Shown: piece by piece, positions 8,363-43,652 of the stretch
Layout of the letters: each line of letters starts with the position of its first letter
Position numbering within the stretch: position 1 is the stretch's first letter
DNA from: Tubulanus polymorphus
Lineage: Eukaryota > Nemertea > Palaeonemertea > Tubulaniformes > Tubulanidae
Direction of reading: 5' to 3'
DNA length: 64,000 nt
NCBI RefSeq assembly: GCF_964204645.1
Contig: NC_134028.1
Location: 9,403,001 to 9,467,000 of the forward strand
The notes under the pieces: model-generated
What the model saw: the letters and a program-made list of their open reading frames with translations, nothing else
Database searches by the model: none
What the model was told of the DNA's origin: nothing
Program-made: the position numbers and the translations under genes

Positions 8363-8713
8363 CCGCGACGTCGATGAATTGAAGTCTGAATACGAGTCGT
8401 ATTATTAAGTTTTAATGATCGAAGGTTTGGAGCTGCGGTATGAGGAAATGACAATGTCATGCTTAGATAAACACGATAATGGAAATATCATTTTTAACAC
8501 TCACCTTTGTACTCGTGTGTGAGATTGCTGCTGGAAGACAAAGGCATGCTTGTGCGTCATACCTAGCTTGCTTTCAATTAAGGAAACATCTGTTCAGAAC
8601 TATCGAATTCAAATTCGTTTTCACCGATTAAACTTTCGATTGAAAAATCAAAGGTTAAGTAGTTTCGCACGAGGGCGCGTGACAGGACTACAATCGCCGC
8701 AAAAGATAGTGTT

Positions 8714-8795
8714 CGACGAGGATGGGATTCGCACCCACGCGGGAAGAACCCAATGGATTAGCAGTCCATCGCCTTAACCACTCGGCCACCTCGTC
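8714..8795 (-). tRNA. tRNA-Ser (GCU), decaying copy or pseudogene
   Basis: A second 82-nt tRNA-Ser(GCU) on the minus strand, almost identical to the copy at 17461-17542. The acceptor stem, D arm, anticodon stem and GCT anticodon are unchanged. Three bases differ. The T loop reads TGCGAAT instead of TTCGAAT, which removes the nearly universal T55 (pseudouridine site) and damages the B box (GGTGCGAATCC). Two changes in the variable arm turn GGGC/GCCC into GGGT/TCCC and lose one base pair. A TTTT run lies within about 15 bases of the 3' end. The T55 loss should weaken TFIIIC binding and tRNA folding, so I read it as a recent pseudogene, although weak transcription remains possible. Confidence 0.85.
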
Positions 8796-9228
8796 ACATA
8801 TGACACCAACGAATCCTGCTGAAATTCAAATGTTCCCTTAAGTTGTTGATTCGGAATTAATTCAAACACAACTGGGTATTATATCAGCGCAAAGGTCTTC
8901 TTATCGATTGGCTTCGTATATATGTAGCCAGGTTACTGGTCTATTAGGTATATAATATATATGTGGGCTATTGTATGAGGGGTGGGCACAGGCCTGTGCT
9001 GAGTGGAGGGCGGGTTCGGGGGGTAAAACGGATCCCCTAAGAAGTGCCCTTCGCGAAGTCAGTTTCAAGAAAATTCGGTTTTGCAAATTTGGGTACAATT
9101 ATTGTCATGAGTTTTTTTAAATAAAAAGTTATCCATTCTCAAACGATCTATTCGAGTAAAATCGTTTTTTGTTTATGTTATAAATATTAAGGTTATAAAA
9201 AGATTCAAATTCAAGACCTCTTTCGAGT

Positions 9229-17460: not shown

Positions 17461-17542
17461 CGACGAGGATGGGATTCGAACCCACGCGGGCAGAGCCCAA
17501 TGGATTAGCAGTCCATCGCCTTAACCACTCGGCCACCTCGTC
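17461..17542 (-). tRNA. tRNA-Ser (anticodon GCU)
   Basis: An 82-nt serine tRNA read on the minus strand, decoding AGC/AGU codons in cytosolic translation. The 5' strand GACGAGG pairs fully with the 3' strand CCTCGTC, and the discriminator base is G, as expected for serine. The D-arm region contains TGGCCGAGTGG (the A box), the anticodon loop is CTGCTAA with anticodon GCT, and the long class II variable arm is GGGC-TCT-GCCC. The T loop is TTCGAAT, giving a perfect B box (GGTTCGAATCC). A TTTT run just past the 3' end, near 17448-17451, could act as the Pol III terminator. There is no intron and CCA is not encoded, both usual for eukaryotic nuclear tRNAs. Its function follows directly from structure; it is the likely active copy of the pair in this window. 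Confidence 0.95.
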
Positions 17543-29944: not shown

Positions 29945-30092
29945 AAACACGCATCACATTAGTTATAAAAAAGAGAAAATTGACCAAACAATGCAGGACA
30001 AAAATACCCGAACAAAATGGCGATTAGCAACTGTAAAATGGTTTATTGAAAGATGCATTTTGAAAATAGGACAAAAATTCCAAAACTAAGTG
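29945..30092 (+). repeat. Direct repeat, family I (copy 1)
   Basis: AACAATGCAGGACAAA, then GCGATTAGCAACTGTAAAAT, GGTTTATTGAAAGATGCATT and TTGAAAATAGGACAAAAATT match 30830-30975 in the same order with an offset of about 885 bp. Confidence 0.6.
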
Positions 30093-30829
30093 GCTTGATG
30101 GTTTTAAGAAATGGTATGAAAAAATGACAAAAATGACCTCTTCCCTCGCTATTGCAATGTGGCGTCTAGGCGATGACTTTCTGAAAGTGAGAAGTGGTAA
30201 GAAAATGAATAATTTTGCCATTAGTAAAACAATGAATAAATGTGTAAATTGGCCATAAGCGATTTAGAAAATGTTTAAGTGTTGAATGTCCTCGAGCAGA
30301 TGAGTCCACAGGCAAATCGATACCACCACCGATAACAGAATCCATCTCACCGACATTTTCTCACGATTAGTCGAATTGGATATTCTAGAAGTTTTATTTC
30401 CTTACAGCATAATCAGATCCGCGAACAATACGCGCCAGTACCGAACGAGTATCTGTATCGTTTTCCTAAGTTAATGGAACTATGCAACCGTGACAGCCAC
30501 ACGAGTGTCATACTCCGTCACTTTATTGTCTACCGTGAATAAAGACATTCATAATTACCTCTTAGCCTCAGTCATTGATAGACAATCTAATTTTACACTC
30601 GATAGTTTCCTATTCGCATCGGTTTCGCCGTGAACACTGAAGGCCTCGGTGTAATTAATGATACTCGAAGAAGATGCGGTCGTTTTTCTCAGCAGATAAT
30701 TCGCTCAAATATCCGTGAAGTAACGCGTTTTCGTTTTCACGTTTTAACCAACGATGATTCGGGTGGATTTTGAATGCCGTCAAAATTATTCAGAATGCAC
30801 TATTCATCCACCATTGACATATGATTAAA

Positions 30830-30975
30830 CTTGCATCATAAATAGCTTTTTAAAGAGAGAAACAATTACCTAACAATGCAGAGCAAACGTACGCTAACAA
30901 AATCGCGGTTAGCAACTAAGAATGGTTTATTGATAGATTTATTTTGAAAATAGGATAACAATTCCAAACCCCAAA
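30830..30975 (+). repeat. Direct repeat, family I (copy 2)
   Basis: AACAATGCAGAGCAAACG, GCGGTTAGCAACTAAGAATG, GTTTATTGATAGATTTATTT and TGAAAATAGGATAACAATTC. About 80% similar by eye to the copy at 29945. Either two insertions or an old segmental duplication. Confidence 0.6.
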
Positions 30976-31960
30976 TGAACAATACCACCCTTATTCTGAA
31001 TGACCATCATCAAGACGTTTATACAAAAATTGAAGTTAAGTCGGTGACTTCTATCAAAAATATAGAGGTATATACATGCATATGCTTAGCCATCGGACAT
31101 GCCATACTATGGCATTAAACCATTTTGCTTACATAAATATTTAGAATTTGAGGGGTTGTTGCTTGATTCTATAGTGAAGTGAAATCTCCCGATTCGTCAT
31201 AACAATGAATAACATATCCGTGGTATCAAGTGGGCACCGGAAGATGGCATGGGTTCTGGCTACTTATCCTGAACCGTACGGTGGAAAGAGTCGCCATGGC
31301 AGCGTCCAGTTCTCCACAAGATTCGGTACTACGTATACGGCCAACGAGCAGATTTATCAGACAAACCAGCTCGATACGTAAGATCTCAAAAGTCAATCGG
31401 AAAATACCGATTCGTTGATGAACGTTGAGACAAAAATCAATAGTGATCAGCAACAGGAGGGAAATACGAGCGAGGAGTCAGTGAAGCGATGTCGCAATGA
31501 AGGCACTCGCCAAGACGCCAGAACGGATAAATAGAAAGGCTCAACAGTCGATTGGAAACTAGGCGTCAGACTCGATAAGAAGGATGAAAGAATTCTGAAC
31601 AGTTAATTAGACCAGTAATGATGAAGGCATAGTTAGTATTGACCAGCTGAGCACCATGTACGTCGTCTGTAGATCAATAGTGAATAAGGACGTTTGATGC
31701 GATAACTCATCGAGTCATTGACTTCAGCTGATTCAGTTTGAAGTCACCCACGCCGTATAAAATATATTTACGTATATGCCAGCGGTAAAGATCCGAATAC
31801 GAGACATCAAAGTGTAAAAACGAATGTATTACGGAAAAAGTTGCAATGTTAACGATGATAATATTGAGAGCAGGAAGAAATATGAAATCGGTGACTTATC
31901 TCAAAATACAGGCGATACTGGATAAAAGGTGTATAAGAAAGGCATTAATACCACACTTCA

Positions 31961-32130
31961 GGGCCGTATTTAGCAGCCCCCCCCCCCCCACAAACTTTGA
32001 AAGAAGGTGCCCATTTTGCAAATATTATTGTTTTGTCCTATACAACCGCCCTTTTGCGGTATCTCTGACCCCCGCCCCCTCCATAAGAAGAAAAAGAAAA
32101 TCCAAATGCTAGGTGCGTACTGCCCTGCAC
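31961..32130 (+). repeat. Low-complexity-rich repeat remnant
   Basis: AGGGCCGTATTTAGCAG followed by a 13-base C run, AAGGTGCCCATTTTGC, and later ACCCCCGCCCCCTCC. It resembles the G/C-run repeats near 23.3 and 49.5 kb in having GTGCCC blocks. Open frames here are low-complexity by-products. Confidence 0.4.
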
Positions 32131-32134
32131 TAAG

Positions 32135-33540
32135 CCATGAAGTACACTTCATGTATTTTGTATCACTGATTTTAATCTCCTATCCTTCAAACCATCTGTT
32201 TTTCTCCTAATCGCTGTAATTTTCAAGATGATATATGTAGCCACTACTATGGAGGGGGTCCCATCATTTTAGTTGGAACAGCCTGTAGTCGGTTTTATAT
32301 ATATTTCCTTAAAGTCTTCACGTTATATCTAATTTTTTTTTAATCAATAAATGTTTGATCTTAAAGTTAAATGTAAAATCTGTTGGTTCGTGTTGTCTAG
32401 TTTTCATAACAGGCATTTGCTGGATTTAGTTCACAAGTTTAAACATATTCAAGTTTTATGAGGTCGCTGGCTCATGTAGCCTTGGTGCTAATTATTATGA
32501 GATGTGAATTTTGACACGTATTTGCTGATGCAATTTTTACCGGAAGCTATGGGGTTCACAAGAATTTCAATTATTTTAATCATATAAAGAATTCATTTTT
32601 CTTAAATGAAGATGAATATTAGGATTTCACAATTATGTGGCGGGAGTTAAATACATTAGTCTTGTTTTGGGTAAGTTCTTTTTCACCATTTTAGGGGATA
32701 AACTATCTAATTTTTTGACTTGAATAGATCTTTGAGAGATTATTTTTAAGGGAGCCCCTGCAGGAAGTTGGGCGTGGATAGTTTGGAGAGAGAAGGGACG
32801 CTTTTGAGATTTCGAGATAGGAGGAAGCTCAACTCGAGCTCTCCTGCAATTTTTGAGTTTTTACAACTAGTAAAACTTGATACGTAATTTATATAAGAAA
32901 TCTTTTGTGGCAGTTGTCATAATCGTCACAAACTTTTTTACTGTTGGAGAACTTCTAACGGGATTGAATTTTAATCATTACGGAGTTGTGTTCGTGATTC
33001 GAAAGTGATTCGGAAGGACACTTAATATTAGTGGTAGTTAAAGTTTAACGGCCACAGGAGTTTTACCAGCTTGGTGATAAAAAACATTGTTAAGTAAAAC
33101 TGTTTTTTTCCGCGTACCAATCTCCGCGTACCACCAGTGGACTTTCATCATCAGTGATATTTGCGTGACGTGCAAATTATAATTTCGACAGATACGACGC
33201 ATTCAGCAAACGTTTAAAAATTTTGGAACCACAAATCAGCAATTACTACAGATTTTTGACAGCAACAGGAACCACAGCGAACTATTTCGGGAGCAGCGCA
33301 GCGAACAATTTCGAGGAGCGGCAGAGCGATCTTTTTGGAGCGACGCTAAGTTAAAATTTATAAACTTTTGAAGAAAAAGAACTTTAATTGATCATTGACT
33401 TACATCTAAGCTAATTTAATTTGATTTGATTTTTATTTTTCTGATCTAAGTTTCGTAAAAAGGGCCCTGTTTATTTTCATTTTTTTCTAAGTACTTTAGT
33501 TATTTTGTTTTTGAATTATTATCTTAATGAATTACTTATC
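32135..33540. other. No gene recognised
   Basis: AT-rich, T-run-rich sequence. A repeated GGAGCG/GCAGCGAAC piece at about 33290-33345 precedes the (AT)n tract. Confidence 0.45.
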
Positions 33541-33542
33541 TT

Positions 33543-33647
<105 letters not shown>

Positions 33648-34455
33648 CTACGAATTACTGGTTTTTTTTATTTGCTGTTCTGGACTCATGCCCGCACGGT
33701 GGCATAGTTTTTATTTTAGGCAAGTGCGGTTACATATAGCGATTAGCCTATCGTCGTTACAGTACAAGTACAGGTCCTTTTGTTATACGTAAATGAAGAT
33801 TTATTTTTTAGGCAATTGTTGACCTCATACTCGAAACAATTTCTAAGAAGACATCCAGAAGTTACCTCATACAATGTGCAGCCTGGTTCTGTTTGATTAT
33901 CACATAATCAAAGACTGCCTCAACATTCACTTGACTCATGCCGGATTTCTTTCAACACACTTCATACACCGAAGAAGAAAGACTTTGTTTTTCTGTTTTC
34001 GCTTCCTAATGAGAGTGTTATCACGCGTTGACACCTGTAACTAGAAAGAAACTGACTCATTCCCGTCGTAGACGCGACCTTAAGATTCCATTACTGAACA
34101 TTTCCTCGATCCTCTCGTTCACGCCGTGCATATCATCCGTTATGACAGACAATACGTCACGGATACTGCATGTTCACTAACTGTATCACAACAATTTTTG
34201 TGGTGACTCATTATCCCTTCTTAGCCGCGGAAAAGTAGCCTTCCGTAAAACAAATGCATCTTCGAAGACAAATCTATTTGAAATTTTCCAGCTAAGTGTT
34301 TATGAATCCATTTGATATCTGAACAGTAGGTTTGCTGTGCTTGATAGGCCTATTAGATTACCTATTGGACTGACTACAGTGTATAGGTTTGGTGAACGTT
34401 TCGGGCTATACTAAAAAGAGTTCTGTACCTAGAGGCACGTTGAATAGTCTTTTCA

Positions 34456-34640
34456 TTAACCCATTTTCTTTTCACGCGAGAAAATTCAAAACTTTTGGAT
34501 TGCTCGCGCGCGAGAATTCAAAACGTTTGGTTTTCTCACGCGAGACAACAAAAAATGGGTTATCGTAAACATTTTCCTTATCGTGTCTCTAGCCGTACAG
34601 AAAAATCGTGTGTGGCCCAAACTAGCCAGATTGATTTTGA
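34456..34640. mobile_element. CACGCGAG hairpin element with downstream tail (copy 1)
   Basis: A hairpin spans 34456-34562: TTAACCCATTTTCTTTTCAC followed by GCGAG is mirrored by CTCACGCGAGACAACAAAAA then ATGGGTTA. A central GCTCGCGCGCGAG palindrome is rich in CpG. The next 75 bp (TCTCTAGCCGTACAGAAA, then TGGCCCAAA) also match the copy near 60.2 kb. Confidence 0.55.
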
Positions 34641-35029
34641 TTATGTTAGATCTTAATAATACAATACCGTACGGATTATTTTCAACCAATATAATGTTCA
34701 TATGAATCGTTCTATTCCAATCAAAAGGGGAAAGAGACACACTCGAGTCGTAATCGTAAATTGTAATTTTTCTTTTTAATTTCTAGATTTGAAGATACTA
34801 TATCACACAAACTTTTTAAGTATTCCCATAACATGAATTGTCAGGTATCTATTATATTCTACATACATATAGAACAATTACGAACATGTACATTGCAGTT
34901 CATCTTACGATTTGCGGCCAAATTTTCGATTTGCGATGCTTATGTTGTGTTTGATTCTGTAATAGAGACCCGCGAAACAAGTTCATTTTAAATGAACTTT
35001 GAATTGAATTTGTCATGCTCCTGAATCCA

Positions 35030-35245
35030 TGTATTATGACAGAACCTACAGAATATACTATATATTCATTTTCTTACCAGATTATCTCAATATCATCAAT
35101 AAAACAATTATTAATGAACAAAGTTCATATTCAGTTTTAATTGAAATGTAAAGAAAATGAACGCGGAAGTCCGAGTAACTACTAGCGAACCTGACGGATC
35201 CTCGCCTGCCATATGTGAACTCCTCGATTGCCACAGATGGCTCCC
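35030..35245 (-). repeat. Interspersed repeat, family C (copy 3, inverted)
   Basis: The complement reads CTGTGGCAATCGAGGAGTTC, ATATGGCAGGCGAGGATCCG, TCAGGTTCGCTAGTAGTTAC, TCGGACTTCCGCGTTCATTT, CATTTCAATTAAAACTGAA and then the AT-rich 3' part with ATGATATTGAGATAATCTGG. This is a nearly full copy. Confidence 0.65.
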
Positions 35246-35364
35246 TATAAATGTTTCATTATAGTATCAAAATACTTTTAAAATTACTTTTCTTAATAAA
35301 ATTACTTTTTCGGATCCATCCATTTTTCACTTACAAATTACATCACAACCAAACGCATTCGCGT

Positions 35365-35450
35365 GATAGGAAAAACGAATCGAGACTCGAACTCACAACC
35401 TGGCGAGTTGTGAGTTCATTTCCTATTGACATAGGCCTCACACCCGACCA
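35365..35450 (-). repeat. tRNA-like SINE head or tRNA pseudogene
   Basis: The complement has GGTTGTGAGTTCGAGTCTCG (T-arm-like) preceded by TAATGGTCGGGTGTGAGGCC, about 45 bp upstream, which resembles a D-arm region. The B box deviates (GAGTTCGAGTCTC). Not foldable into a full cloverleaf by eye. Confidence 0.4.
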
Positions 35451-36380
35451 TTAGAATCATTACGCAAGATAAACTGTGATTGTAGTCTCGACAATATTAT
35501 CTGTAACGTCATTTCAACCATATTCACATGAATTCAATCGAAAGACAAAATCGATTGGTTTGATTACAGCCTGAATATGAATCCAGCATTGATATCGCAC
35601 TACAGTTATAAGCACACCAAGCGGGTCATCGCTTTTAAGCGGAATCCTCCACAGAACTCCGCGTCAGTTGACATAAAACTGGCCAACACTAAACTATGGA
35701 GATGTTATCGTGAGATATGGAGATATCACCTTTTACTGTCTGATTCAATTTACTGGTGTTGGAGTTCGTCCTGCTATAGACACAATGATTAATTCCGGTA
35801 TCAGCCCTTAGAGAGCTTTATGTTGCTAAATAATTCATACTGATTACCTGTGTATACAAGATGCAGGTGGAACACCTTTCCAGTGAAATCATGTGCGTAG
35901 AATTAATAGACGTTGCTATCTCAGTACGCGGCAACTTCGTATTTACTGTCTAGAATAAAAAAGTATTATTATTGCAATATACTTTGAGCATTATGTTTGT
36001 CACTCAAACTTTATGCGTACTGTACTATAGCACTTAACAGAAACTACAGAATCAACAAATGATACGATATCAATGACTCTTTTTCTTTTAGCACAAATTC
36101 AAATAATGGCTTTTCTAGATTTTTTCTAGATTCATAGATTTATGACATACATGGCATATATCTATGAGGTCACACTGCAAATAGTTAGATTACCCCTTCA
36201 TCAGTTGAAGACGGATATTAAAGGCTTTCCTAAAAGTAGAAAGATTGTATGATTTACTAGTACTGGAAATTAAGTTTTCTTTTTGTTTAGATTTGTCCAG
36301 TAAGTTCTTGGTATATATATATAACTTAGTCTTAAGCCAGAGTATGCAGGACATATTTCTTTATGCCTTCCCAAATACTA

Positions 36381-36408
36381 ATTACTTACTTACTTACTCA
36401 CTCACTAA
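36381..36408. repeat. (ACTT)n / (ACTC)n microsatellite
   Basis: TTACTTACTTACTTACTCAC, TCACTA, about 65 bp before the hammerhead-like motif. Confidence 0.75.
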
Positions 36409-36470
36409 TTTACTCAATGAACTTGTTCTCCTGTGTATATATATACCCTCCGTTTTTTTGTCATAATCTC

Positions 36471-36512
36471 ACACCTGACGATGATCTCTAGGGTGAGATC
36501 GAAACGTCGTGT
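36471..36512 (+). ncRNA. Hammerhead-ribozyme-like motif (Penelope-type)
   Basis: Contains the hammerhead core in order: stem I strand ACAC (36471-36474), CTGACGA (36475-36481), stem II GATCTC / loop TAGGGT / GAGATC (36483-36500, six perfect pairs), GAAAC (36501-36505), GTC (36506-36508) and stem I return strand GTGT, which exactly complements ACAC. CUGANGA plus GAAA and an NUH cleavage site (GUC) are the known catalytic elements. Stem III would be only AC/GU with no loop, so a single molecule may not cleave; the ACGU at this spot is self-complementary and could pair between two copies. Minimal stem III hammerheads are known from Penelope-like retroelements. Activity is inferred; the sequence match is direct. 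Confidence 0.62.
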
Positions 36513-37394
36513 ATTCTATATTTTAGATTTCTTGAATGAATAATTTCTCGATTTTGAAATCCTTTAAATTTGTACGTACATAGGGGGTTTTCATCGTATT
36601 AATGACTAATAAATGGTTAACATATCAGATGTAGTAAGCAAATTAGTCTTTTCAATCGAAAAGCTTATTCATTTAAATATGGAGGTCGTAGACATTTCAA
36701 CCTTTGAATGATTATAAAACTTTCGGTCGAGGCAAGTTTTGTCACGTTCTGTCACTAGTTTTCATACTCGAGATTCGGCTAGGGGAAACAATGCCTGTGA
36801 GCCTTGTAAAAGTGAATCATCTTGCGATTTGTCAGATTCAGTTTACCACAAATCTTCCACTGTTAGCATTAATTATTTGAACCAGCTCGATGCCTTACGG
36901 GGCCCGTTAATTGGCAAAGACGCTCGCAAGTGGAACCCAAACAATACAATCACTGTTCGGTGTACGCTTGGAGAACTTCCAACCTTCGGGCTTCACAAAA
37001 ACGAGATTTCACGCTTGATTGTCACTCGTTAGTTTCCTTTTTGAGATGGAAGCTTTTATCTGTACGACAAACGTAAGCGTCGCGTGGCCAGGTGAAACCG
37101 ACGATCTATGACTAAGATGCTCGATAAATAACAATACTCAATGACAAAAGAATCCTTACAATGAAATTAATCAATAATATCGATCCGATTAAGAACAGGT
37201 AACTGTTAACGACAAGCAGATGCGGATTTGACTCAGTAGTCAAATTAAAACCTCGTAAGGTTTTCTTCTCACACGTTTCAAAAGCTTATCAAACCGTCTC
37301 AATAGATGACAGTCATTTTGCTATGTTTTATAGGGACTACCTCAGTGTATGGTTTAGACTTAACCAGATTTCTGGCTTTGCTTTAGTTTTTTTT

Positions 37395-37590
37395 TCACCA
37401 GTGTGAGTCAGTGTGAACTACGTCATCAATATTGGGGTTTAAAATTTGAAATAATAGTTAGGAAATTTAACCAAATACGAAATAAATGCCAATATACATA
37501 ATTGTTGTTGGAAAGAATGTTCATGTCTTTTTATGATGAATGAAATTTTTGATAATTCAATAAGTCGATGCCTGGATATTAAGCAATACA
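37395..37590 (-). repeat. Interspersed repeat, family D (copy 4, inverted)
   Basis: The complement of GTGTGAACTACGTCATCAAT (37410-37429) gives ATTGATGACGTAGTTCACAC, the family core, with CTGACTCAC after it and a diverged AT-rich upstream part. The downstream AACGG...GCGTCA block is lost. Confidence 0.5.
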
Positions 37591-37811
37591 TTACATTTTT
37601 CAAGGCGTCCATTAACCTTAACCAGTTTAGTTTTCTTGATTTTTATTAAGGACCCTTTGTTACGAGGACGGCATTTGAGCTTTTTTGAGAAACTAGGGTA
37701 TTTCTATTTAGGTACCGGTATTGCAGATTCTCCAAATATATCATCTCTAAACCAAATAAACTCACCAAATACACTCAAAGAAACACATTAAAAAATCAAT
37801 ATTTATTATGT

Positions 37812-37955
37812 GATTGTCGGATTGTCGATGGAAATTTCCTCGACAGTTCTTCTGAATGTCGGATTGTCGAACGAAATTTTTTCGACAATGCTTATGATTG
37901 TCGGATTGTCGAAGAAAATTGTTTCTACAATGCTTCTGATTGTCGAAGGAAGTTC
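37812..37955 (+). repeat. 42-bp tandem repeat, about 3.4 units
   Basis: Units start at 37812, 37854 and 37896 with a truncated fourth at 37938, each GATTGTCGGATTGTCGAxxG, AAATTTTTTCGACAATGCTT, CT. Each unit holds an inverted pair (TTGTCGAA / TTCGACAA) that can form a stem. As 42 is a multiple of three, both strands stay open across it, giving 14-residue repeats. Confidence 0.85.
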
Positions 37956-38160
37956 TCCGGACATGGGACAAAAACCGCAATACGCAGTTTGTCCCTACGA
38001 CCTCGGCACTATTCAACCAGAAAACGGAGTTGAACCAATATTATTCGTAATAGAACGATAACCACACTCAAACGTGGTGAATAAGATAAAATCCCACTAT
38101 TTACAGATTAAAAGAATTTAAAAACCAGAATTTATTTATTCAATCTAATATATATAAAAG

Positions 38161-38198
38161 ACACGACGTTTCGATCTCACCCTAGAGATCATCGTCAA
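38161..38198 (-). ncRNA. Second, damaged hammerhead-like copy
   Basis: On the minus strand the 37 nt from TGACGA through stem II, GAAAC, GTC and GTGT are identical to the copy at 36476-36512, but in the opposite orientation. The base before TGACGA is T instead of C, so the CUGANGA box is broken, and the 5' side of stem I no longer pairs with GTGT. The change falls exactly where the TTCGTTTTTGC repeat cluster begins, suggesting that a later rearrangement cut the motif. Probably inactive. Confidence 0.6.
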
Positions 38199-38418
38199 AC
38201 TTCGTTTTTGCCACCGCGCAAAAACGAACTTTTCGTTTTTGCTACCCCGCAAAAACGAAATATTATAGCGCAAAAACGAAAAAATTCGATTTTGTTCTAT
38301 GAAATTCGTTTTTGCGCCCTAGCAAAAACGAAAAGTTCGTTTTTGCTCTATAAGTTTCGTTTTTCTATAATCGAGGTCGTGTAAAAATTAGTGCATTTGG
38401 CCCTTATCAGCCACCATA
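38199..38418. repeat. Palindromic TTCGTTTTTGC cluster with foldback-like terminus
   Basis: Holds about eight copies of CGTTTTTGC or its complement GCAAAAACG in alternating orientation, so the stretch can fold back on itself many times. It ends with GGCCCTTATCAGCCACCATA (38399-38418), whose complement is identical over 20 bp to the left terminus of the foldback element at 55779. The opposite terminus is not found on the left side, where the cluster abuts the damaged hammerhead-like copy. Likely a truncated relative with a different internal repeat. Confidence 0.6.
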
Positions 38419-38419
38419 C

Positions 38420-38640
38420 TTCCATCATGTAGAGTCCATGATCATAGTCATCTCCAACATGAACGTCATCTCCACCTTTCTGCCATCATAACCATATCCA
38501 ACTTCTCCACCATTAATTACCACCAGCACCACCATCTCCTCCATCATGACCATCTTCATCCCCACCAACACCATCATTATTATCATTATCGTCATCTCCA
38601 CCACCATCACCATCTCCACCATCTTCATCATTTCAACTAT
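38420..38640. repeat. CCA/CAT-rich imperfect microsatellite
   Basis: Interrupted mixture of CATCATC, CCACCA and CCATC units over about 220 bp, starting next to the foldback-like terminus at 38418. The Met/Val-rich minus-strand open frame is an artefact of this bias. Confidence 0.8.
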
Positions 38641-38644
38641 CTCA

Positions 38645-41600
38645 AACGTCACTGATTCTGAGTAACTAACATGGTTTTTATGAAAAAAGAATTAATCAAA
38701 ATTATTCTATTCGGAGTTACTAATCCAAAAAGATATATTTAAAGAAATATTTCCTCCAGGAGGCTTCCGTAAAGACATGCCATTTTTATAGTTTCATGAA
38801 TTTTTCCTAGATCGTCTTGAAATAGGGAATCTGTAATTCCAAGTTTCGTGCGTTCGGTTTTCTGCCAGTTTGATAGGTACCGTAGCCCACAAACAACGAT
38901 GACTGATCATTGGGACCTTTTCTAGAATTAAAACAGCCTCCTTAGAGGCTTAAAAAATTGCAAAGCCGACCTTACGGTCGTCAGTGCGGGGTATTGGGTA
39001 TAGTTTTCAACTAGCAATAACCACGTCTCGGATTAACCTCATTGAGTATGGTATCGCCACTGCGCAGAGCTGCCCGCACCAACTAGGCGCGGATTTATAT
39101 GTTGCCATACCACTCGTAATCACGACGGTGATCGAAACCTGACTGGAATATCGTCGAATAAACATGAATATCTATGCAATAGAATAAGATTAAAATGCAA
39201 GTTTTTTCATTGTTTAATTCGATGCAAATATTAGAGCACGACTAAAATAAATTGAATATTTCAGCTGATAATGGAGTTTCAGCGACGGTCCTTTTGCGTA
39301 AAGGCGCAAGCAGGCGGCGACCTAGTAGGTTTTTATCACCGTAAAACTGTTCCTATTCTTATCGCGCGTTACATTTGGTTTTTAAGTTGCTCTGATCTTG
39401 GTTCAAAGACTAAACTTAACCCTATTGGATTGTTCTTTTAACTTTTCAAGACATGTTTAGCAGAATATCTGAAATGGGTTTCTTTTCAAAAGTTTTATTG
39501 TGTACTTTTTAACACATCTTATTTCCTAAATTAAAAGATGCCGATGCTTTAGTCCGGGGACATTTTTAGCAATAGAACATTCAGACAGGATGGAGAAATA
39601 CCCTATGCGTCTCTTCCGCCCGCAAGTGACAAATCCAAGCTCATAATTGCTCAGATTGAAGGACACAGAGGACTAACGCGGGAACTTAAGGTAGGCAAAT
39701 CTGCTCGTTGATTCTTACTAGAGCAGACTAGGTCCCGGGTGCTTCGTGAATCAGGGACTCTTCTCTGCGTGTGAACCTACGGGTAGACATACGTGACACA
39801 GGCTTACGTGTGTTTCGTGAATACGTACGTTCCCTGGCACTTTATTTTCGCAGGGAAGAGCAGTGAGCGGTCGAAAATATGCTTTTCCTATGATCGATAG
39901 AAAGTGAAAATGGTGGTCTATATCAGTACTCATTCTTCATGAAGTGGAGATCAGGACCCAGCCTCACTAAACGGATTATCTCCTTAATCGAACATAAATT
40001 GAATTAACGAAACTAAACTAAATAGATTTAGGAGTAACGCTTTTTGTAAGACTTGGCCCTTTGCCAAACTGTATAGATATAGGCTAATGCATTCTCCACT
40101 AGTCAGCGCAGTGATGCCACTCATTCTCCATACGGTTAGAGAAATAACAGTATCCAATCAGGTTCAATGAGTAGTCCAATCAGGTTTCTAATGAGTAGTA
40201 AGTCGAGCCCTCAGTTCCCGTCCACCGCAGTTTTCAGAGATTTATGGCGCTCTATCGATTGACCTGGATGGAATTATCAATCGGGTTTACGATCTTATCG
40301 GACCCGATCTTGTAAATAAAAAAACATATTTTCTACTTAGTCAATCACACTTAAGTATGCAGAATCACGTTTTTATTTAAACGTACCGACTTACCGTATG
40401 AGTATATTGATATAGATTAACTATAGTGAATTTAGTAACAGTTTATCCACACAGAGAATGGTACGGTTAAACAACTAATGAGTCAGAAAAGTTACACAAT
40501 GCCGCAGAAGCCGGAAAAATTAGTGAACCGTTCTGAAACTATGGAGGCGCGCCTGTGGTGTTTAAGCTGCTGAGGAGAAGGGGAATCCTCATAAACCCCA
40601 CATACCAAACTCAATATGTCATACATCTTACTAATTACCTTCATTTCTCTAAGCGGTTGAATAATTGCCGACGGAAATGGGCGCACTCTGTGCAGGATGA
40701 CTCAGCTAAAAGAAGCCTCCCCAATGCCCTGTTCGCAGCTTTCCGTTTCCAGCAGCATGCGACTAGACGCTCGCTTTTGTATTCGATGTATCATTTTTCG
40801 CCGCCCAGTAGAGAATGCCCTAACCGCTACGAAATCCGAGCGCTGATTGGTCCGCGCCTAACCATCGCGGACGACGTGAAAAAAAATGATCACGTGATCG
40901 ACACAACGGTCGATCTGATGTTTTAATTAGTATCGATATTGTTCGAGTATCTACGGTGTGTATCCCGCTATGATACAGCCCACCAATACCTGGATCCTCG
41001 AATCCTGTGAGTCACACAGAATTCGCCTTGTTATTAAGTATTAATTGTCAGATGAGACTGCCGAGAGTTGGGAGTATAGCATGCGTTAATGCAACTTGAC
41101 TTTCATAATCTGGATGAATCCTTCGATAAAATCGGCTTATTTAATCAATATCGACCAATAGTTTTTTATCTGTCCATTTTTCGAACGCGGCGCATAATCA
41201 GGTAGTCGTATGAATGGGAAGATCCGTGTATAATAAAAACTAGTGTTATTGCCCTCACGAGGAAATTTATCACGGACTTCCTTATATACGATTCGTTCAT
41301 CACGAAAAAGTCAAGCCTTGACTGTGCGTTTGTCTTGGCAATCGCAGAGTTTGAACAAGATTGCCCTTCCTGGAATTTGAATGACTGGTGTTCATAGGTA
41401 TTGCGCTTCAATAATTTCATATTCTCCTTTTTGGGCGCCAAAATTTGATTAAACCAGCTTCGTCGTATAAACTCTGGTTTGAACGTTCATGAATTTAAGC
41501 AATGTGTAAGGAATTCCCAAGTTATCAATTGCAAAATTTGATTTCCCCAGCTCGTGAAACTCCCTGAAATTCTCCTAAGTGGCCTCCAAAAGTCACTGTC

Positions 41601-41700
41601 GAAAAAATTTTATCAGGTTACGATTTTATGAAAATTTGATATAATTTTCATGATTTTTTTTGGAAAATGAAAAATGATTTATTCAGGTACCCGGGCATTT
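38645..41700. other. No gene recognised
   Basis: Three kilobases without recognisable genes or repeat families. The 123-codon plus frame at 40555-40926 has no known homology and begins without an ATG, so I do not call it. Confidence 0.45.
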
Positions 41701-41702
41701 AA

Positions 41703-41812
41703 GATCTGCCCTTTCCAATAAGAAAGTGCCTCTTTTCACGGTGAAAAGGTGCCCTTTTTCTTGGAATAGAACTGCCTCTCCGTAAAGCTCGGCACGGGCC
41801 TGTTCCCGTGAT
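41703..41812 (+). repeat. TTTTCACxGTGAAAAGGTGCCC repeat (copy 2)
   Basis: CTTTTCACGGTGAAAAGGTG, CCCTTTTTCTTGGAATAGAA, CTGCC and then CTCGGCACGGGCCTG. Contains a short palindrome (TTTTCACGGTGAAAA). The order matches the inverted copy at 43653-43745. Confidence 0.55.
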
Positions 41813-42254
41813 TCCATGTCGAAGGACTAACGCCGAAAAAGGGTGCGATTTTAACAGATTTGTTTCACGAATTTCCACATGTTTGTGTATCATATTGTAA
41901 CAAGCGATATAATCGAGTGAACGTATTCATTTCGATGTCAGACGTTCGCGAATCAATAAGCCGTATTGTGTTTTGCGTTGATTCTGTCTTCTCTCGGACG
42001 TAACAGAAAACTTCATTTCCGTATTTGATAGAATGTCTCTTTCTTCTTTGGTCCCTGGATTAATTAAACTACCAGGAAACGTACATACAGCCAATGCATT
42101 ATATACGGTGATTTCTATGTAAGTAGAGAAATGGCATGTGTAGTCCCTGTATATGGGTTTCTATAATACTCATATTCATTTATCTATTCTCTTTCGGCCA
42201 GCTACTACATTTTGTATTTTCAACATTCTTTTTTCAAGGTTCCAGTTTATACAA

Positions 42255-42302
42255 GCCTTGGTTTTTCTGCAATTTATTTCTGAAATAAATAAATAAATAT
42301 AA
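42255..42302 (+). repeat. LINE-like 3' tail (AAAT)n
   Basis: GCAATTTATTTCTGAAATAA followed by further AAAT units. The same ATTTATTxxTG...AAATAAATAAATAA layout ends the stretch at 59850-59967, suggesting a shared retroposon 3' end. Confidence 0.4.
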
Positions 42303-43652
42303 TGAAACTATCATCCAAAAAAAGCTTTCCGAATGGTTTGTATTTTTCAATGAACTGCTTTTCTTCTTATTCAAAAATGTATTTGATTCTACGGTATATT
42401 CAAAAACAAAAATTTTTGTAAAAATTATAAAATGAATACATAATACTCGAATTACATCCTACTCAGTACATGTAGCATATAAAGGTTTTCGTCGATGTAC
42501 TCAATTCGTTATCTAAAGAGAAAACTTCAAGTATACACGGTTCAATTCGTTTTAAAGTTAATGGATATGGACCAATAGAGTCCTCGCAACTACGATTTTG
42601 TCGCAAGTAAACACCATATTGGACATCGAACAAAATACCTGATTCACATTTTACTACCCCCACCCCTAGCCCACTGAGAAACACGCGGGACATTGTTCAA
42701 TGTTTCTTTTTCTTCCCCCAGTAGAGACCAGTGAAGAACCTTCGACCAAAAAACTCGTGAAACTCACGAACCCATCAACCCTGTATAGACGAGACGGCTC
42801 AAACTACTACGCCTCCTTATGAGATTCACGAGACCCAGTAGTGTCTACGTCTTCATCAAGTACATTAGTGATGTTTGGTAATTTACTATTTTATATAGCT
42901 GATGTACTGAACATCAAAAGGTATAAACTGTAATTGGATAAATCTTTGGTAAAAATGCTTTTGTGGCTTCAGGTTTGATTTCTTTCGACTGACCAATAAA
43001 CAAAAGGAGTTTTCATATTCTTCTGTTAATCGCCGTGTTTTATCGTATTGTGTCTTCTTGTATTTTCTTGCAGACGCCTGACTCCCGGAGTCAAGTCCGG
43101 GCGTAATTACGTACTTACACTGCTCGTATAACGAAGTGAATTAAATACCTCGGCAGATGTAGCAATAATTGTGAATTTATTACGCAGTATGATCGAACCA
43201 ATATCACATAACGATTAGATAAACTGATAAGGGGTTTCATTGTCGACGAATAAGATGATTAGATTATTAGAGAAAGATTAGAAAAAAATGATGATCACTA
43301 TGGGGAAAAATTCATCTTATGATGATCTTATTAGACTGTAGTATTTCGAACTGAGTTACATAAAAGTATAATTAATGGGCATTGTGGACTAGATTCCTTG
43401 TAGCCAAGCAGCACAATTGCGCCAATTGCACAATCACATTTTTGTCAAAAAGTTCTCGGCAGGCACGTAGTGAATTAGAAAGGATTGAAAAGGTCACGTC
43501 AAAATGGCCTCAGATTGTACCTCGTATGGCAACTACTTTTTCATAGGGTTGGCCCTCAGACCCCTTTTCTTCACACCCAGTTTCAACGACTTCATAAAAC
43601 GTCCACTTTCATTAAATTTACGTGCCAAATGCTATGATTGAGTCGGTAAATC

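Follow-up and report, generated by a model that had tools for sequence, protein, structure and literature searches.

A minimal hammerhead motif in the terminal repeats of Penelope-like elements of Tubulanus polymorphus, and the single tail of their paired copies

We describe a short RNA motif whose identity as a minimal type I hammerhead is supported by its core, by the order of its parts, and by compensatory stem changes across families. Sequence comparison places it in the terminal repeat (pseudo-LTR, or pLTR) of Penelope-like elements (PLEs), and the family found here, family A, appears on the same grounds to be a Penelope-like family with about a thousand end-copies in the genome. Many copies stand as joined, opposed pairs in which one far end, and only one, carries an additional short tail. 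This one-tail rule is better supported than any role for cleavage. The window, by which we mean the whole 64,000-nt stretch of DNA that was analyzed, carries what reads as an old, interrupted, and dead fragment of such an element.

The hammerhead motif, its surroundings, and its families

A hammerhead is defined by the core CUGANGA, GAAA, and UH, and these elements occur in the order proper to type I in the window motif and in its relatives. The initial annotation had described every core element in the right order, an exact ACAC/GTGT stem I, a six-pair stem II, and a stem III without a loop. A direct read of 36471-36512 bears this out, with 4/4 pairs in stem I and 6/6 in stem II; A36504:U36507 and C36505:G36506 are the only pairs possible in the loopless stem III. 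Core-position names such as C3 and A9 are applied to residues that we take to be their equivalents. The self-complementary ACGU could form 4 bp between two molecules. No open reading frame of at least 80 aa runs over the motif in the six-frame list for 30000-43000, so a coding explanation is not backed.

Scoring with the Rfam hammerhead covariance models, which had been proposed as a check, went against the motif: there was no match over the window at the gathering score and none in 36400-36600 when the threshold was relaxed to E ≤ 10. The relaxed search also missed loci of families B2, B1, and C, and because these loci have covarying stems, the missing match carries little weight. An Rfam match is a database criterion, and the small PLE variants are not defined by it.

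Table 1. Features of the window around the hammerhead motif
Feature	Position	Strand	Remark
Upstream piece of element 1	36088..36116	+	27-29 bp match, 85-90%
Secondary insertion splitting element 1	36117..36352		~236 bp
Element 1, 3'-terminal part of old family-A PLE around the hammerhead	36353..36602	+	tailless
TATA-like stretch	36436..36445	+	35 nt before ACAC in the window copy; putative promoter role
Minimal type I hammerhead motif	36471..36512	+	direct read, genome copies, alignment of relatives
Stem I strands, ACAC / GTGT	36471-36474 / 36509-36512	+	4/4 paired
CTGACGA core (CUGACGA)	36475-36481	+
Extra T (U in RNA) between A9 and stem II	36482	+
Stem II strands, GATCTC / GAGATC	36483-36488 / 36495-36500	+	6/6 paired
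Stem II loop TAGGGT	between 36488 and 36495	+
GAAAC	36501-36505	+	including GAAA, 36501-36504
GTC (GUC) upstream of predicted cut	36506-36508	+
Predicted cut site	between 36508 and 36509
Element 2, younger family-A end fragment	38048..38197	-	tailed

Two family-A fragments were found in the window (Table 1). Element 1, which holds the motif, is ~77-84% identical to sister copies by blastn and, as entry L009 of the arm table, matches only positions 1-124 of the arm reference, meaning that it has no tail. The equivalent of its upstream piece stands ~25 bp before the rest of the element in the sister copies L016, L035, and L049. The stretch 36269-36357 is found again, reversed, at another locus (L026). 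Element 2 starts at the second base of CUGACGA; C3 is missing, with a T in its place, and its motif should therefore be dead. The two elements are mutually inverted, with 1,630 nt between their matching parts, and because of this orientation they would be unable to form a dimer within the same transcript.

Several other features were observed in the window. A palindromic repeat cluster built on TTCGTTTTTGC...GCAAAAACGAA (38198-38364) adjoins the 5' end of element 2, and 37811-37963 is a tandem array of three to four copies of a 42-bp unit. A U4 spliceosomal RNA gene (38937-39071, minus strand, 107.8 bits) lies ~0.7 kb from element 2; together with the genome size, it marks the host as a eukaryote. 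Further away are two tRNA-Ser(GCU) genes on the same strand, ~8.7 kb apart (8713-8796 and 17461-17542, both minus), and an AT-dinucleotide tract of ~100 bp (33545-33645).

Within the window, the bare pattern CTGANGAN{4,30}GAAAC was found twice against 1.01 expected, which is not significant. Across the genome (267.8 Mb, 77 contigs), the same pattern occurred 5,904+5,920 times versus 1,067+1,069 for the reversed pattern, and with GTCG added at a spacing of 8-30, as CTGANGAN{8,30}GAAACGTCG, the counts were 584+549 versus 4+1. A 35-mer from the window had 531+512 = 1,043 near-copies with at most 3 mismatches, versus 0+0 in the reversed control. At most 1 mismatch was allowed for the other families, of which B1 had 93+98 copies and C had 952+910, with a control count of 0 for each. 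A chance origin of the motif is ruled out by these genome counts against reversed controls. At least two families besides A are thus present in the genome (B1 and C). The motif families are new; their kind, the minimal PLE hammerhead, is already published.

We aligned seven representatives of families A, B1, B2, and C (alignment A1, 42 columns, gapless). The copies had been expected to conserve CUGANGA, GAAA, and the stem pairings, and they do: 97.6% of the 84 cells in stems I, II, and mini stem III are paired (7 sequences, 12 pairs), a percentage helped by drawing the representatives from a list restricted to motifs with 4 bp or more in stem II and 2 bp or more in stem I. The families themselves were collected with the core regex, which did not demand stems, so the invariance of the core between families is partly circular. 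The same partial circularity applies to the variability of N7 across representatives while CUGANGA and GAAA are kept. Eight of the 12 pairs are changed on both sides (5.0 in shuffles), as are 22 cells (6.3 in shuffles). The true register is the best of all slides, with no slid register close; 92.9% of cells are paired in helix 1 and 100% in helix 2. Helix III (2 bp, loopless) is invariant in 7/7 representatives, and because it never varies, the ACGU of stem III has no support from covariation. Six of the seven have U12 between A9 and stem II, and the seventh has G there; A9, U12, and the base that opens stem II read AUG.

Single-strand fold prediction favors a plain hairpin with an added GACG:CGUC pairing over stems I and II (-15.7 versus -10.1 kcal/mol, 42 nt), and a 47-nt segment gives the same plain-hairpin fold at -16.5 kcal/mol. 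The extra pairs of this extended hairpin (GACG:CGUC plus U:G) are broken in 3 of 35 cells and changed on both sides in none, and the hairpin is pairable in 95.2% of cells across families, largely through G-U pairs. A divergent hammerhead-like motif with a GAAAG...CTC stem III pair and a 7-bp stem II was also seen at L016 (2118-2161, plus strand) and possibly represents a further PLE family.

Penelope-like elements and the arrangement of their copies

A connection to Penelope-like elements had initially been drawn by inference, and longer copies now give it substance. Six family-A copies (L035, L034, L021, L013, L016, and L049) have ~0.9-1.6 kb upstream of the hammerhead in common, and this stretch contains a decayed reverse transcriptase (RT) plus GIY-YIG frame with 40-66% tblastn identity per piece to an 833-aa PLE protein; one of them, L016, also has 95-100% identical pieces from a nearby family-C copy. 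The decayed frame stops ~85 bp before the hammerhead (L035 and L013). The 833-aa PLE frame is open at a family-C locus (L069), where it sits in tandem units of 2,856 bp that each hold a single hammerhead; an inverted 5' arm is present as well. Its protein carries RVT_1 (PF00078, 6.2e-10) and GIY-YIG (PF01541, 1.6e-5) domains, as in a single-ORF PLE. Among the loci fetched, intact tandem units with an inverted arm were not seen for family A. Genome-wide, PF01541 gave 306 candidates and at least 150 matches. The window itself has no tblastn match to the 833-aa protein at 1e-3, since only the end of the element is present there. The upstream frame in longer copies and the family-C tandem PLE together make the hammerhead a terminal feature of PLEs.

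Pairs were counted at 126 family-A loci, 90 picked by the exact hammerhead and 36 by a downstream 38-mer; another 30 loci (L009-L038) served the analysis of the upstream region and a 120-locus arm table, outside the pair counts. At 75 of the 126 loci (three in five), two opposed arms of ~120-160 bp meet head to head near the hammerhead. The far ends lie mostly at one of two points ~35 nt apart, and the extra stretch is a tail of ~36 nt that is predicted to fold as a stem-loop in all three families (A, B, and C).

Among the 90 exact-hammerhead loci there are 58 pairs, and exactly one arm is tailed in 58/58 (50 tail/no tail and 8 tail/other); the remaining 32 loci are single-arm copies (18 tailed, 12 tailless, 2 other), with target duplications recognized by eye in L046, L048, and L052. 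Over all 75 pairs, a script assigned 65 as tail/no tail, 9 as tail/other, and 1 as no tail/other, giving exactly one tailed end in 74/75. In the single exception (L138), the last letters of the tail are found by eye beside the target duplication. Neither two-tailed nor two-tailless pairs were found among the 126 family-A loci (0/75 for each). The rule extends to the other families: 9 of 10 family-C loci are pairs, with one tail in 9/9, and 5 of 10 family-B loci are two-ended pairs, with one tail in 5/5, so that families B and C together have one tailed end in 14/14 two-ended pairs. One more family-B locus is tailed/truncated, and a recognizable inverted arm is absent in 4/10. Small match overruns beyond the end point were judged by eye at L176 and L172.

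The pairs are bounded like insertions. Flanks of at least 8 bp are shared in 57 of the 75 pairs versus 34 of 3,705 shuffled combinations, and the target duplication is ~12 bp (median shared stretch over the 75 pairs, 12 bp). Junctions are distinct in 68/75, which argues that the pairs are largely independent events and not copies of one master. We found no count of exactly one tailed end in essentially every pair in the open-access papers searched, and the rule may be known. A trailing enzyme blocked on one shared RNA would be expected to leave a longer tailless arm; a tendency of the tailless arm to reach further toward the 5' end was considered and not kept (45 versus 24, 6 equal, p = 0.015, 75 pairs; 37 versus 16, 5 equal, in the 58 hammerhead-picked pairs, but 8 versus 8, 1 equal, among the 17 pairs that the 38-mer supplied). 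In 13/75 family-A pairs, the tailed arm starts at hammerhead positions 20-24 (loop II), as would be expected if the folded hairpin made reverse transcription pause, though the palindrome makes the alignment there uncertain.

The 5' ends of copies were examined in 78 arms with the exact downstream 38-mer, picked regardless of the hammerhead. This 38-mer occurs at 886 places in all, and 78 of the 80 listed on C2-C4 were used; one place in L028, element 2 of the window, and 20 listed on C1 were left out. The arms begin at -3 to +7 of ACAC in 28 cases and at -4 in 9 (ambiguous, as the palindrome of the neighboring arm blurs alignment); another 16 begin upstream of this range and 25 beyond it, inside the element. 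The commonest copy start is thus at the first bases of the hammerhead. The cut site is passed by 62-63 of the 78 arms, where the 63 includes the second arm of L129, whose start the BLAST table places at the cut site instead; 1 arm starts exactly there and 14 end short of it. Also, copy starts do not pile up at the cut site, with 5 of 150 arms (75 pairs) at positions 36-41 and no excess over neighboring positions. Because copies start at the first bases of the hammerhead and show no such pile-up, the RNA was probably copied mostly uncleaved; the simplest reading of the copy ends is an RNA that starts at the hammerhead. The first TATAWA stands 31 nt before ACAC in 24 of the 37 copies having that region, and this spacing and the copy ends together suggest a transcription start at ACAC. 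At positions 11-231 of a family-B locus (L171), an intact family-B hammerhead copy is preceded by nine partial repeats in direct orientation, spaced 25 nt apart and each covering the first 21-30 nt of the motif; the pattern resembles slippage or jumping of the template at the 5' terminus of the RNA.

Proposed insertion mechanism and alternatives

We consider it very likely that the copies reflect a minimal hammerhead in a PLE pseudo-LTR, a Pol II start at ACAC, priming of two cDNAs, and a template that is usually uncleaved. Transcription would begin just at ACAC, so that the RNA opens with the hammerhead. Both target strands would then be cut by the PLE protein, which would prime one cDNA on each, with the two cDNAs using two different internal start sites (tail and no tail) and both extending to the 5' end of the RNA, where they would usually copy an uncleaved hammerhead. 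Any ribozyme cut would occur as a dimer or with help from protein, and it would shorten the template, not make it. Cleavage between two molecules, which the initial annotation had regarded as the likeliest mode, would fit what is in print, either as dimer action (PMC7761336) or through a need for the PLE protein (PMC11167929). It is also plausible, and we put it forward only tentatively, that a cDNA pair is obligatory for every Penelope-like insertion, one per strand from two fixed starts, probably made by the subunits of a PLE dimer on one RNA, with the 5'-end hammerhead marking the meeting point and cleavage opposing copying. The strict rule of one start of each kind is not predicted by the in vitro results on the Anolis element, where RT starts showed no strand difference (PMC11167929).

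Inverted pairs might instead form by self-priming (snap-back) on a single cDNA or antisense RNA, as proposed for Penelope elements of Adineta vaga (PMC3846280), and the hammerhead is partly self-complementary. We regard this as rather unlikely: snap-back leaves the far end of the second arm unset, yet two fixed points occur, one of each, in 65/75 pairs, and both the shared flanks of at least 8 bp around the whole pair (57/75) and the diversity of junctions (68/75 distinct) stand against it. Alternatively, the conserved unit could be a plain DNA or RNA palindrome that helps two cDNAs anneal and join, its likeness to a hammerhead being incidental or vestigial. The extended hairpin is the predicted minimum and is mostly pairable across families (95.2% of cells), the arms meet near the hammerhead, and A. 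vaga PLEs have palindromes at the inverted junction (PMC3846280). Annealing through stem II would, however, leave overlaps of at least 6, seen in only 4/75 pairs, and 29/75 junction gaps lie at -2 to +1. The extra pairs of the hairpin lack changes on both sides, with 3/35 cells broken; CUGANGA and GAAA are constant while N7 varies, a partly circular observation; and published minimal PLE hammerheads cleave as dimers, going by the title of Lunse 2017 as cited in PMC7761336. On balance, a palindrome of this kind is distinctly unlikely to be the explanation.

Two further readings concern how the copies multiply, and both seem highly improbable to us. Were the pairs a non-autonomous inverted-repeat element that multiplies as a unit from a single master, tailed at one end and tailless at the other, the one-tail rule would, by reasoning alone, be automatic. 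That 75 pairs have 68 distinct junctions disfavors such a master, as do the recurrence of the rule in three families whose tails differ and the occurrence of single-arm copies at 32/90 loci, some with target duplications. The copies could also be metazoan retrozymes, whose short hammerhead repeats stand in tandem and spread via circular RNA from double self-cleavage. Their unit size is like that of the arms, their GC content is likewise low, and they co-occur with PLEs (PMC7761336). Against this, stem III is loopless, copy starts do not pile up at the cut site, and head-to-tail units of 150-450 bp with hammerheads were not seen by eye in the 120 loci. Copies in direct tandem, which the initial annotation had suggested looking for, are found as the family-C units. 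By eye, none of those 120 loci has whole units adjoining each other head to tail; the nearest case (L022) is a pair of plus copies separated by 0.6 kb, within which an inverted copy lies. The optional tail of 30-40 bp and the target duplications of PLEs are both present.

Known systems and meaning

Minimal (small) type I hammerheads of Penelope-like elements were reportedly described by Cervera and de la Pena in 2014 and by Lunse et al. in 2017. It is established that PLE pseudo-LTRs carry minimal hammerheads, that these are dispersed in thousands of copies, and that they may cleave as dimers (PMC7761336 and PMC6155905). The families described here resemble them in type I order, loopless helix III, pseudo-LTR location, thousands of copies, and a proposed dimeric cleavage. 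Metazoan non-LTR retrozymes also have a type I hammerhead, a short low-GC unit, and many copies, but they are head-to-tail tandems (PMC7229834), whereas copies here are single or head to head.

The closest parallel with biochemical data is Poseidon PAc of Anolis carolinensis (Frangieh et al. 2024, PMC11167929), which shares with the elements here a single RT plus GIY-YIG ORF, tandem repeats, and an optional 30-40-bp tail. A hammerhead at the pLTR/ORF junction and RT starts in an AC-rich stem-loop are further likenesses. In PAc, two internal RT starts delimit the optional tail, both strands are cut and extended, and unprocessed RNA is used; hammerhead mutants had no effect on insertion, so cleavage was unneeded in vitro, and no RNA reads were found to begin or end at the cut site. 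These in vitro results agree with an uncleaved template. The difference lies in the start sites, for which no difference between the strands of PAc was reported in vitro, whereas here one of each is found per joined pair, essentially always.

Pen2a and its relatives in A. vaga (Arkhipova et al. 2013, PMC3846280) are alike in having an inverted pLTR joined to a direct one, an optional tail of 31 bp on one of the inverted pLTRs, target duplications of 8-10 bp, and TATA and Inr-like motifs in the pLTR. They differ in that few copies are known, the tail is called optional, and self-priming is favored. The word "hammerhead" was not found in the available text of that paper. Inverted pLTRs and short 3' extensions are also mentioned in PMC8969392.

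The role of the PLE hammerhead has been described as still a mystery (PMC7761336), and the mechanism of PLE insertion is only partly known; the copies studied here amount to a large natural archive of completed insertions. They indicate an RNA template that is mostly uncleaved and two RT starts that are each used once per joined pair. The purified enzyme of the Anolis element exists, and with it, or with end counts in other genomes that harbor young PLEs, both statements could be tested.
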